Shown: piece by piece, positions 16,957 through 20,473 of the stretch
Numbering within the stretch: the stretch's first letter is position 1
Layout of the letters: each line of letters begins with the position of its first letter
NCBI GenBank assembly: GCA_012735505.1
Contig: JAAYHE010000014.1
Span: forward strand, 1-45,845
DNA: 45,845 nucleotides
DNA from: Bacillota bacterium
GTDB taxonomy: Bacteria; Bacillota; UBA994; UBA5500
Reading direction: 5' to 3'
Notes under the pieces: generated by a model
What the model was told of the DNA's origin: nothing
Seen by the model: the letters and a program-made list of their open reading frames with translations, nothing else
The model's database searches: none
Translations under genes and position numbers: made by a program

Positions 16957-17547
16957 ATGCTAGTTGGTAAGCCAGCACCAACCTTTACAGCCAAAGCTTT
17001 CCACGAAGGCATCTTTAAGGATGTTAGTTTAGAAGACTACCGGGGCAAATGGGTAGTACTTTGCTTCTACCCTGGCGACTTTACTTTTGTCTGACCGACC
17101 GAGCTCACATCGATAGCGGTCCGCTATCCCGAATTGCAGGCTCTAAACGTTGAAGTACTAAGTGTTAGCGTTGACAGCGTCCACTCGCATAAGGTATGGC
17201 AGGAGGCCGAGCTCAGCAAAATGGTAGAGGGCGGCGTACCTTACCCCATGTTATCCGACCAAGGTGGAAAGATCGGCAGCCTCTATAAGGTATACGACGC
17301 TGAGGCCGGAGTTAACGTACGAGGCCGCTTCCTCATTGATCCCGACGGCGTCATCCAGGCTATGGAGGTGCTAACACCGCCAGTCGGCCGCAACGATGCC
17401 GAATTATTCCGTCAGATAAAAGCCTACCAGTTGCAGCGGGAGACAGGCGAAGTCATCCCTGCTGGTTGGCAGCCAGGCCGGGCCACTCTCAAACCTTCAC
17501 CCAAGTTAGCTGGTCGCGTTTGGGAAATCTGGAAACCGGAAGTTTAA
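16957..17547 (+). CDS. Selenocysteine-containing AhpC-type peroxiredoxin, UGA at the peroxidatic position
   Basis: The frame from ATG 16957 (AAGGAGG upstream) to TAA 17547 is 196 residues if TGA 17092-17094 is read as selenocysteine. The context is PGDFTFV-U-PTEL, where typical 2-Cys peroxiredoxins have TFVCPTEL, so U46 replaces the peroxidatic cysteine. T43 and the downstream R of GRFLIDPDG fit the family. The C-terminal resolving cysteine, normally in EVCPA, is isoleucine 167 (EVIPA), and only C36 remains. The enzyme should reduce peroxides; without the usual disulfide partner its reductant is unclear. A SECIS-like hairpin follows the UGA and a PerR-like box lies upstream. A standard caller would start it wrongly at 17134. 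Confidence 0.9.
17112..17128 (+). promoter_or_regulatory. Candidate bacterial SECIS hairpin of the peroxiredoxin
   Basis: GATAGCG (17112-17118) pairs perfectly with CGCTATC (17122-17128) around the loop GTC. The loop starts 24 bases after the UGA and its first base is G. Both features fit the general bacterial SECIS rule (loop about 16-37 bases after UGA, a G early in the loop). Binding by SelB is inferred. Confidence 0.65.
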
Positions 17548-17582: not shown

Positions 17583-17610
17583 TTGACAAGCGAGTTTAGA
17601 ACTGTATAAT
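17583..17610 (+). promoter_or_regulatory. Consensus promoter of the T-box / tyrosine phenol-lyase unit
   Basis: A perfect TTGACA (17583-17588) and a perfect TATAAT (17605-17610) are separated by 16 bases. Transcription should start near 17617, directly before the T-box leader. Confidence 0.85.
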
Positions 17611-17629
17611 ACCAACTAAGCCAAAAAAC

Positions 17630-17898
17630 GATGACCGAGAAGAAGTAGAGGCCTATTACTTCCTGACAGAGAGCGACCGGTTGCTGAGAGGGGCGAGGAA
17701 GCAGGTCTTGAATACATCTCGAGAGTTGCGCACCGAAAGAGTAATCGAGTAGACTGCTGCCGGGACCCGCGCCCGTTATAGCGCTAGAGTATAACTGCCT
17801 CTTGGCAGCGTACTCGACGAGGTTGGCATCGTGAGATGTCAGTGAACAATGGTGGTACCGCGGTTAACCCCGCCCTTTGGTAAAAGGGCGGGGTTTTT
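17630..17898 (+). promoter_or_regulatory. T-box leader, specifier best read as TAC (Tyr)
   Basis: Canonical parts in order are AGTA in the lower stem I, the AGAGAG bulge, the distal-loop motif GGTTGCTGAGAGG, a specifier region GAATACATC, the T-box TGGTGGTACCGCGG (about 17850-17863), and a terminator. In the specifier region TAC at 17713-17715 is followed by A, as expected for the codon-purine rule, giving tyrosine. AAT (Asn) one register earlier also precedes a purine and is the main alternative; Trp (TGG) is not present. Uncharged tRNA-Tyr would turn on the downstream gene. Confidence 0.85.
17866..17898 (+). terminator. T-box-controlled terminator before the lyase gene
   Basis: AACCCCGCCCTTT (17866-17878) pairs with AAAGGGCGGGGTT (17883-17895) and runs into five T. 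It is the terminator arm of the T-box. Confidence 0.85.
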
Positions 17899-17996
17899 GC
17901 CTATCTAAAAGGGGGTGGTTTCGCTGGATGTCGACTATCCATATCCGTATTTGGCAAGGAGAATAACAACGAGATCAAACAAGGAGGCCAATAGCA

Positions 17997-19442
17997 ATGA
18001 CAAACATCAAAATGTGGGGTGGCGAAACCTTCCCCGTAGAAATGCATAAAGTGCGCATCGTGCAGAAAATCTCTCTACTGCCGGTGACAGAACGATTGGC
18101 AGCGATTACGGCTGCGGGCAATAATAACTTCTTGCTGCAGAATAAGGACATCTTTTTAGATATGCTCACCGATAGTGGTGTCAATGCTATGAGCGACCGT
18201 CAACAGGCAGCTATGCTCTTGGCTGACGACAGCTATGCTGGTAGTGCCAGCTTCACTCGATTAGAACAAAAGGTGCGGGAACTATTCGGCTTTGAGCATT
18301 TCCTACCTGCGCATCAAGGCAGGGCTTGCGAACATTTGCTGGCGCAAGTATTGGTGCGCCCGGGCATGATAGTTCCTATGAATGTCCACTTCACCACTAC
18401 CAAGGCACACATCACCTTGCAAGGTGGGCGTGTGGAAGAACTCATCTGCCCAGAAGGCATGGAGACAAGCAGCAACTATCCTTTCAAGGGCAACATGGAT
18501 ATCAAGAGGCTGGAAGAATTGGTCGAGAAGGAAGGGCCTGAGAAAATCGCCTTTGTCCGCATGGAAGCCGGTGGCAACCTCTTGGGCGGGCAGCCCTTTT
18601 CTTTAGCAAACCTGCGTGAGGTGCGTCGGGTTTGCGATCAACATAACCTTCTTTTAGTACTCGACGCCAGTCTTTTAGCCGATAACCTCTATTTCATTAA
18701 GCAACGGGAAGAGGCCTACGCCGAGCTCGGCATCAGAGCCATCACTAAAGAGATCTGCGAGCTGTGCGATATATTCTATTTCTCGGGACGCAAACTCGGC
18801 TGCGCCCGCGGCGGTGGGCTATGCCTGCGAGACGACAACCTGCATGAGCAGCTGCGAGAACTAGTGCCCTTATACGAAGGCTTTCTAACCTACGGAGGCA
18901 TGTCGGTTCGCGAAATGGAAGCGATGGCCGTGGGGCTAGAAGAAACAATGGATGAAGACATGATCAGCCACAGCCCCCAGTTTATCCGCTATATGGTGGA
19001 CGAACTCGACGCCCTCGGCATACCAGTAGTCAAACCGGCTGGCGGTTTAGGCTGCCACCTCGACGCTGCTGCTTGGCTGCCCCATCTGGCCCAAAGTGAA
19101 TATCCGGCTGGCGCTTTAGCTGTTGCCATCTATATAGCTAGCGGCATCCGGGGTATGGAGCGGGGTACCTTGTCAGAGCAGCGCAATCCCCAGGGCGAAG
19201 AAGTTTTCTCTCCCTTTGAATTGGTTCGCTTAGCCTTACCACGCCGGGTGTTCACCCTATCGCAGGTTAAATATGCTATCGACAGGCTGCACTGGCTCTA
19301 CACCCATCGGCACCTTATTGGCGGGCTAACTTTCACCCATGAGCCCCAAAACCTACGCTTCTTCTTCGGCAGGCTCAGGCCAACTTCCGACTGGCAGGAG
19401 GCTTTGGTAGCCCAATACAGGCAAGACCTCGGGGAGATCTAG
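17997..19442 (+). CDS. Tyrosine phenol-lyase-like PLP enzyme (tryptophanase/TPL family)
   Basis: The 481-residue protein belongs to the beta-eliminating lyases and looks closer to tyrosine phenol-lyase than to tryptophanase. It has LTDSGVNAMSD, Y80 in SYAGS, HQGR, FTTT, N in NLLGGQP, D223 (cofactor nitrogen), K266 in SGRK (Schiff base), and MERG with R389, the arginine that in TPL recognises the substrate and is absent in tryptophanase. Differences: the arginine after the cofactor aspartate (DATR in TPL) is leucine (DASL), and SGKKD is SGRKL. TPL reversibly converts tyrosine to phenol, pyruvate and ammonia. AAGGAGG precedes the ATG. A T-box controls it. Activity on tyrosine is inferred. Confidence 0.82.
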   Translation: MTNIKMWGGETFPVEMHKVRIVQKISLLPVTERLAAITAAGNNNFLLQNKDIFLDMLTDSGVNAMSDRQQAAMLLADDSYAGSASFTRLEQKVRELFGFEHFLPAHQGRACEHLLAQVLVRPGMIVPMNVHFTTTKAHITLQGGRVEELICPEGMETSSNYPFKGNMDIKRLEELVEKEGPEKIAFVRMEAGGNLLGGQPFSLANLREVRRVCDQHNLLLVLDASLLADNLYFIKQREEAYAELGIRAITKEICELCDIFYFSGRKLGCARGGGLCLRDDNLHEQLRELVPLYEGFLTYGGMSVREMEAMAVGLEETMDEDMISHSPQFIRYMVDELDALGIPVVKPAGGLGCHLDAAAWLPHLAQSEYPAGALAVAIYIASGIRGMERGTLSEQRNPQGEEVFSPFELVRLALPRRVFTLSQVKYAIDRLHWLYTHRHLIGGLTFTHEPQNLRFFFGRLRPTSDWQEALVAQYRQDLGEI

Positions 19443-19480
19443 TCAACAAGTGACGTTGCACGTAACGGCCACTGCAAAAT

Positions 19481-19511
19481 GGCCCCTGTGCGCTTCTCGC
19501 GTACAGGGGCC
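19481..19511. terminator. Convergent terminator after the lyase gene
   Basis: GGCCCCTGTGCGC pairs with GCGTACAGGGGCC (one G-T pair) around TTCTC, followed by GATTTATTT. It separates two converging genes. Confidence 0.8.
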
Positions 19512-19525
19512 GATTTATTTGAGCA

Positions 19526-20473
19526 CTACTGCTCTTGTCGCAGGTCACAAAACCTGATTATTTCTTCGGTCAGCCAGGTGATGTTCCTCGGCTCCAAATG
19601 CACATCTCGAGACGAATGTACGTTGGGCACATAAAAACTCTTGCCTATGGGCGCTGGATTAGCAAAAATCACTCCGGCTGCACCCTCGCATTTGAAACTA
19701 AGGTGGTCCGATGGCAGCTTGCCATAATCAGTATCGCTGCGGCTAGATTGCAGGTGACGAAATAGGGCCTCACTCTTGCTGCGTTCTCCAGCAGAGCAAA
19801 CCACGGGCACCTGACCCCAGCCGACACAATCAAAGTTGATAATCATCTTTTCACGCAAATTAGCGCCAGCTTCCAACCAATGTCGCCGCAAATGTCGCGA
19901 GCCGTGCAGCCCTAGCTCTTCTAAATCAACGAAGGCCAGCTGCACTTTCTGCTTGAGAGCCGGGTAGTCATTGAGGGCGCGGGCGATGCTCAACAGTGCC
20001 AACACACCGCTAGTGTTGTCATTAAGACAATACTTGTTAGGAATAAGCATGATGGCGACTATAACTATGAGGGGGCTGATACCGATAAAGAAGGTTAGCA
20101 ACAAAGACAGGGACATAGATACACCTATGCGAATCAAGCTTTCGCTAAGTCTCGTAAGCAGGTGCCCAAAAAGAAAACCAGCAGCAAACAGCAACCATGA
20201 ATTTAAGCCGAATAAGCGGGTGAGCAGCCCCCCTATCGGATCCCGACCAATAGTATCATAATGAGCTAGCAAAATGATGTCAGGATCGGGGTTTTTGGTC
20301 ACCACATTGTGCGACCTGAGCACCCTGCCCCCAGTCACTACTTCTGCTTCCCACCCCAAATCGGCCAATTCCTGCAACAAGAAAGTGCGAAAAGCCTGCT
20401 TTTGCTTGCCCGCTAAGCGCGCAGGAAACTCGGCGGCAATGCGCCGAGCCATAGAGGAAATATATTGCACCAC
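19526..20473 (-). CDS. M28-family zinc peptidase with a transmembrane insert
   Basis: This 315-residue protein has all M28 metal motifs: LAHYDT (His and Asp ligands), LNDNTSG (bridging Asp), DLEELGLHGS (catalytic Glu-Glu), NFDCVGWG and the late His in NVHSSRD. Between the first and second motif, at about residues 95-145, sits a hydrophobic region with two or three membrane helices, so the catalytic domain is split by a membrane hairpin. M28 enzymes are mainly aminopeptidases. No signal peptide is seen before the first motif. The start is one of two consecutive GTG codons at 20473/20470, with AAAGGAG upstream. The side of the membrane on which it acts is not clear. Confidence 0.8.
   Translation of the reverse strand: MVQYISSMARRIAAEFPARLAGKQKQAFRTFLLQELADLGWEAEVVTGGRVLRSHNVVTKNPDPDIILLAHYDTIGRDPIGGLLTRLFGLNSWLLFAAGFLFGHLLTRLSESLIRIGVSMSLSLLLTFFIGISPLIVIVAIMLIPNKYCLNDNTSGVLALLSIARALNDYPALKQKVQLAFVDLEELGLHGSRHLRRHWLEAGANLREKMIINFDCVGWGQVPVVCSAGERSKSEALFRHLQSSRSDTDYGKLPSDHLSFKCEGAAGVIFANPAPIGKSFYVPNVHSSRDVHLEPRNITWLTEEIIRFCDLRQEQ

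Follow-up and report, generated by a model that had tools for sequence, protein, structure and literature searches.

A tyrosine-specific T-box leader before a third-clade lyase of the tyrosine phenol-lyase/tryptophanase family with a predicted role in tyrosine supply

In the window, by which we mean the whole stretch of 45,845 nucleotides that was analysed, a T-box leader RNA specific for tyrosine stands before the gene of a PLP-dependent lyase that belongs to the tyrosine phenol-lyase (TPL)/tryptophanase family but to neither TPL nor tryptophanase. The leader is confirmed as real, with complete anatomy. We propose that the enzyme is induced by tyrosine starvation and supplies tyrosine, most simply from phenol, and to this reading as a whole, in which the activity is putative, we give a probability of about 0.55.

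A covariance-model search with specifier prediction, which the first-pass annotation had proposed as a check, gives a match over the full length of the T-box model RF00230 (1-219 of 219) with 83.9 bits and E = 8.6e-19, and with a specifier that reads Tyr. It is noted that the Rfam gathering score for RF00230 is 93, of which the leader falls short, and it is because of this shortfall, and not because of the absence of a T-box, that the default Rfam scan of the window is empty. The region had been taken to start at 17630; the element is there, but the T-box itself begins at 17622 and its promoter at 17583, slightly upstream. The features are collected in Table 1. The terminator hairpin has a folding energy of −25.2 kcal/mol (z = −4.9), with none of 200 shuffles being equally low, and it competes with the antiterminator, which in the Rfam alignment uses the 3' strand shared with the terminator. 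Moreover, the tRNA-Tyr of the window's genome has anticodon GUA, A73 and an encoded CCA, with its 3' end reading ACCA, to which the UGGU of the leader (17853-17856) is complementary, while the specifier UAC matches the anticodon.

Table 1. Features of the leader and the lyase gene in the window
Feature	Position	Strand	Basis
Sigma-70 type promoter, TTGACA-16-TATAAT	17583..17610	+	12/12 consensus positions matched
T-box leader RNA (Stem I, Stem II, IIA/B, Stem III, antiterminator)	17622..17880	+	RF00230
Specifier UAC (Tyr) in GAA-UAC-A	17713..17715	+	Rfam alignment
F-box/Stem IIA-B element CCCGTTA	17772..17778	+	sequence; CGTTA invariant across nine aligned leaders
Stem III hairpin, limits approximate	17824..17844	+	covariation among nine relatives
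T-box sequence AATGGTGGTACCGCGG	17848..17863	+	sequence
Intrinsic terminator	17866..17898	+	folding energy; CCCCGCC common to terminator and antiterminator
Ribosome-binding site AAGGAGGCC, approximate	17981..17989	+	sequence
Third-clade PLP lyase of the TPL/tryptophanase family, 481 aa	17997..19442	+	PF01212, NF009709, tree
Terminator-like hairpin 3' of the gene	19480..19512	+	14-pair stem, then ATTTATTTGA

The position of the specifier was calibrated against the T-boxes found elsewhere in the window's genome (20 in all), with the downstream genes named by eye. The triplet agrees with the downstream gene for leuS (CUC), tyrS (UAC), ileS (AUC), asnS (AAC), gltX (GAG), trpS and the trp operon (UGG), metG (AUG), proB (CCU), lysS (AAA), pheS (UUC), valS (GUC) and argS (CGC). 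Two other T-boxes of the genome (L005 and L019) stand before genes that are not aminoacyl-tRNA synthetases, which by eye resemble an oligopeptide ABC transporter ATPase and a nucleosidase. Note also that the window holds a second T-box, at 2286-2499 on the forward strand, upstream of a gene that by eye is proS-like (prolyl-tRNA synthetase), and that it too scores below the gathering score.

Homologous lyases in relatives were a further place where T-boxes had been suggested to be looked for. With one genome taken per species, the scan gave 80 proteins with 55-81% identity to the window protein, and 26 of the 80 have a T-box upstream of the lyase gene, making 27 with the window; two contigs of the relatives (L049 and L051) begin too near the lyase gene for a T-box to be judged. 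The triplet is UAC in all 26, as in GAAUACAUCUC, GUAAAUACACUCC and GAAGUUACACCC, including L091, whose specifier region, CAAAUACACUUC, lies outside the motif pattern used for the others. The Rfam gathering score is passed by 24 of these 26 T-boxes, with the two below it (L021 and L088) having the same motifs. In Stem III, compared among nine leaders, both sides change in six of the seven pairs and 100% of the cells are paired, as against 24-50% when the partners are slid by 1-3 columns. The single triplet in all the relatives' T-boxes, together with this covariation, thus indicates a conserved regulatory arrangement, which is present in several Bacillota lineages and in a mycoplasma-like genome (L058, Mycoplasmatota strain zrk6, which is in culture). 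The Tyr specifier that had been claimed for the leader therefore holds, with the same triplet in every one of the 27 leaders found before the lyase gene in different genomes.

The relatives having no T-box are mostly spirochaetes and other non-Bacillota groups. In one genome that has prephenate dehydrogenase (L040), a leader upstream of position 348 resembles a T-box with the middle deleted and the terminator kept. In two Bacillota MAGs where the lyase has no T-box (L026 and L027), another leader is seen about 250 bases upstream, in which GTAG/GGTAG motifs are repeated and a hairpin resembles a terminator; this leader is possibly a different attenuator.

We now turn to the enzyme. The protein matches PF01212 (Beta_elim_lyase) with 176.9 bits against a cut-off of 27, with the equivalent of the PLP lysine, Lys257, conserved; the closest solved proteins are TPLs, with 42-43% identity, and the AlphaFold model (pLDDT 89.9) has TPL as its best structural match, with a TM-score of about 0.9 (Citrobacter freundii 2EZ1). 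By contrast, it fails the TPL equivalog TIGR02618, with 467.8 bits against a cut-off of 720.7, four other tested members of the clade giving 435-452 bits, and it fails both tryptophanase equivalogs, TIGR02617 and NF053783, with 360.1 and 384.2 bits against 825.8 and 750, while NF009709 ('tryptophanase') gives 603 bits. In the tree, the window protein groups with its relatives in a single clade (SH-aLRT 100) on a long branch, TPL and tryptophanase falling together on the opposite side; the identity of this third clade to TPL is about 42%, compared with about 51% between TPL and tryptophanase. The genome also encodes a genuine TPL (C16:2350-3705, L116; 856 bits) and a tryptophanase-type protein (C73:11631-12995, L125), neither gene having a T-box. 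Thus the description of the gene as tyrosine phenol-lyase-like was apt as to likeness, while the protein being TPL proper is ruled out by the failed equivalog, the separate clade and its own residue changes, with the real TPL standing elsewhere in the genome. It is noted that all three clades, TPL, tryptophanase-type and third, coexist here in one cell.

Two further loci bear on the family at large. In G062 (L126, 979-1839), residues 190-289 of the third-clade lyase are present as a fragment with 74% identity, joined in the same reading frame to a lipoprotein-like sequence that is not related to it; this is either a gene remnant or an assembly error. In G038 (C86:27279-30106), two more distant family members, 33-35% identical to the protein of L084, are adjacent to one another as a tandem pair.

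The residues were compared in 81 third-clade sequences, using the TPL numbering. Five positions have been described as separating phenol-lyase from indole-lyase, namely Thr124, Met288, Met379, Arg381 and Phe448 (PMC5805759). Four of these five are kept in all 81 sequences, with the fifth, Met288, being Phe as in tryptophanases, and Tyr71, Arg100, Asn185, Asp214, Lys257 and Arg404 are also invariant. On the other side, Arg217Leu, Thr216Ser, Lys256Arg and Glu69Asp are found in 81 of 81 and Asn262Arg in 80 of 81, and Asp258Leu also differs from TPL. Two of the replaced residues, Glu69 and Asn262, belong with Gly52 to what we take to be the potassium site of TPL. Since four of the five phenol-lyase determinants are kept, the pocket for the phenol ring appears to be retained, with the surroundings of the cofactor remodelled. 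Three TPL residues are deemed to bind the carboxylate of the substrate, one of which is Arg217 by our inferred numbering (PMC3870968). With Arg217Leu, Met288Phe and the changes near PLP and at the presumed cation site, the substrate may therefore differ. Set against TPL, then, the clade has in common the fold, the PLP lysine and the invariant residues listed above, and differs in overall identity and in these seven replacements. Set against tryptophanase (TIGR02617/NF053783, TnaA), it has in common the family, the fold and the Phe at position 288, and differs in having only about 37% identity and in having Thr124, Arg381 and Phe448 where tryptophanase has Asp, Ile/Val and His.

Another suggestion had been to look for missing genes of tyrosine biosynthesis, and such a gap was found: in the window's genome, which is 98.9% complete and has chorismate synthase, no prephenate dehydrogenase (TyrA), prephenate dehydratase or phenylalanine hydroxylase was detected, the searches for the first two being positive in 14 of 14 control genomes. 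Across 51 lyase genomes, prephenate dehydrogenase is missing from 18 of the 27 having the T-box and from 4 of the 24 having none (Fisher p = 5e-4, uncorrected for kinship), where 'missing' means no hit or sub-threshold hits only and many of the genomes are drafts that may be incomplete. The phylogenetic independence of this link is not established, with two usable pairs on well-supported branches. Nine T-box genomes retain the enzyme, and the spirochaete and other relatives, whose lyase has no detected T-box, mostly have TyrA. The clearest cases are L076 and L084, both of which have chorismate synthase and prephenate dehydratase but no prephenate dehydrogenase. Among 41 genomes sampled from the family of L084, prephenate dehydrogenase is found in 33, and it is missing from both genomes having the lyase compared with 6 of the 39 having no lyase (p = 0.03). 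In the window's own small class, loss of TyrA caused by the lyase was considered and rejected: no match at all to the TyrA family is found in 13 of 15 genomes, and only 2 of 15 have the lyase. There the lack of TyrA goes back further and is not explained by the lyase. Phenylalanine hydroxylase as another route to tyrosine was rejected, being found in none of the 18 T-box genomes that have no TyrA. The earlier proposal that shortage of tyrosine turns the gene on is thus well supported, by UAC in all 27 leaders and by prephenate dehydrogenase missing here and in most T-box genomes.

Based on these data, the following pathway can be proposed. When tyrosine is short, uncharged tRNA-Tyr would bind the leader via the UAC specifier and the UGGU bulge, and the bound tRNA would stabilise the antiterminator, so that transcription reads into the single lyase gene and the third-clade enzyme can then serve the supply of tyrosine. 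We infer this direction of control, with uncharged tRNA-Tyr as the on signal, from the standard T-box logic, in which uncharged tRNA turns the gene on (PMC7778990). Known TPL is described as catabolic and activated by TyrR (PMC1173090), and therefore the third-clade gene would be under the opposite control. As the lyase gene is kept under a Tyr T-box in many lineages, it most likely adds to tyrosine supply, and because T-box and lyase are found together in many anaerobes, the majority of them having no prephenate dehydrogenase, the lyase probably helps in making tyrosine and not in breaking it down; that it serves tyrosine supply is the part of the proposal we consider likely. The chemistry is held with less confidence. 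Since the phenol pocket is kept, the simplest would be the known TPL reaction run in reverse, in which phenol, pyruvate and ammonium give tyrosine; alternatively, tyrosine could arise by beta-replacement on serine or cysteine with phenol. The phenol may be released by other members of the anaerobic community or by the TPL of the cell itself. For the conversion of phenol to tyrosine by this lyase, we would put the odds slightly below even. More tentatively still, and with the odds leaning somewhat against it, the proposal may extend to many anaerobes, which would draw on phenol in their environment for tyrosine by means of a third-clade phenol-lyase that is dedicated to this task and repressed by tyrosine, and that replaces or backs up prephenate dehydrogenase.

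It may be argued, by contrast, that enzymes of the third clade have a different substrate, some other aromatic or a beta-substituted amino acid, and that they help during tyrosine starvation by other means, such as analogue salvage or precursor release, rather than by the coupling of phenol with an alanine moiety. If this were true, the replacements Arg217Leu, Thr216Ser, Lys256Arg, Asn262Arg and Met288Phe, fixed or nearly so in the 81 sequences, would be readily understood, as would the long branch of a clade that is less identical to TPL than TPL is to tryptophanase. Against it stand the phenol-pocket residues Thr124, Arg381, Met379 and Phe448, which are unchanged in 81 of 81, and the specifier, which is always Tyr, and we regard this substrate change as less likely than our main reading.

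It could also be supposed that the enzyme breaks down tyrosine in the ordinary catabolic way and has come under a T-box by happenstance, with the control having little to do with tyrosine synthesis, in line with its kinship to the catabolic TPL and tryptophanase and with most of the window's class having neither TyrA nor the third-clade lyase. It would then be expected, however, that tyrosine is destroyed during tyrosine starvation, which should harm the cell, and yet T-box and lyase gene have stayed together in 27 genomes, always with the same specifier, and the window's genome has a separate true TPL under no T-box; ordinary catabolism is thus improbable. As to the T-box being a chance or decayed match, a notion to which the score below the Rfam gathering threshold lends itself, its likelihood is practically nil, being refuted by the E-value, the full-length match, the promoter, the terminator, the specifier, the fit to tRNA-Tyr, the above-threshold orthologous leaders and the covariation. 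We therefore retain the reading of a lyase that is induced by tyrosine starvation and serves tyrosine supply.

Tyr T-boxes as such are known, on tyrS, on tyrosine-biosynthesis operons and on the phenylalanine 4-hydroxylase of the Bacillus cereus group, an enzyme of a route to tyrosine (PMC2494555). The present leader is like them in its UAC, its UGGN/T-box sequence, its antiterminator/terminator switch and its control of a gene for tyrosine supply as we read it, but differs in the gene controlled, which is here a lyase of the TPL/tryptophanase family. Phenylalanine hydroxylase offers a parallel, since it is likewise usually seen as catabolic and makes tyrosine in bacteria having no TyrA (PMC7311316); it requires oxygen, however, unlike the proposed third-clade route. 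Thus the T-box is of a known kind, while the lyase is a new kind of regulon member, from a clade having no assigned function. In the open literature searched, no report was found of a T-box on TPL or on the third clade; comparative T-box reviews in subscription journals lay outside this search, and an earlier notice there is possible.

A bacterium is normally called a tyrosine auxotroph when it has no TyrA, and phenol is a fermentation product and a pollutant. If it is true that tyrosine is made by the lyase, many anaerobes to which this label is given could use phenol as an aromatic precursor. The conserved Tyr T-box also gives a regulatory handle on the function of a whole clade that is placed under 'tryptophanase' (NF009709) when scored by sequence, and it directs attention to a natural lyase that may synthesise tyrosine, with possible use in making tyrosine analogues.

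Finally, we note the surroundings of the gene. The hairpin that follows the lyase gene, and the next gene (19526-20473) lying on the opposite strand, imply that the transcript is probably single-gene. Conserved neighbours were sought at 80 lyase loci and no functionally telling gene recurs, and thus the lyase gene stands alone. The gene before the T-box (16957-17547, forward strand) encodes a peroxiredoxin with an in-frame TGA (17092-17094) at the position of the peroxidatic cysteine (FTFV-U-PTEL), so that this peroxiredoxin is probably a selenoprotein; a tRNA-Sec is present in the window's genome (G000:C8:2859-2951, 76.2 bits).
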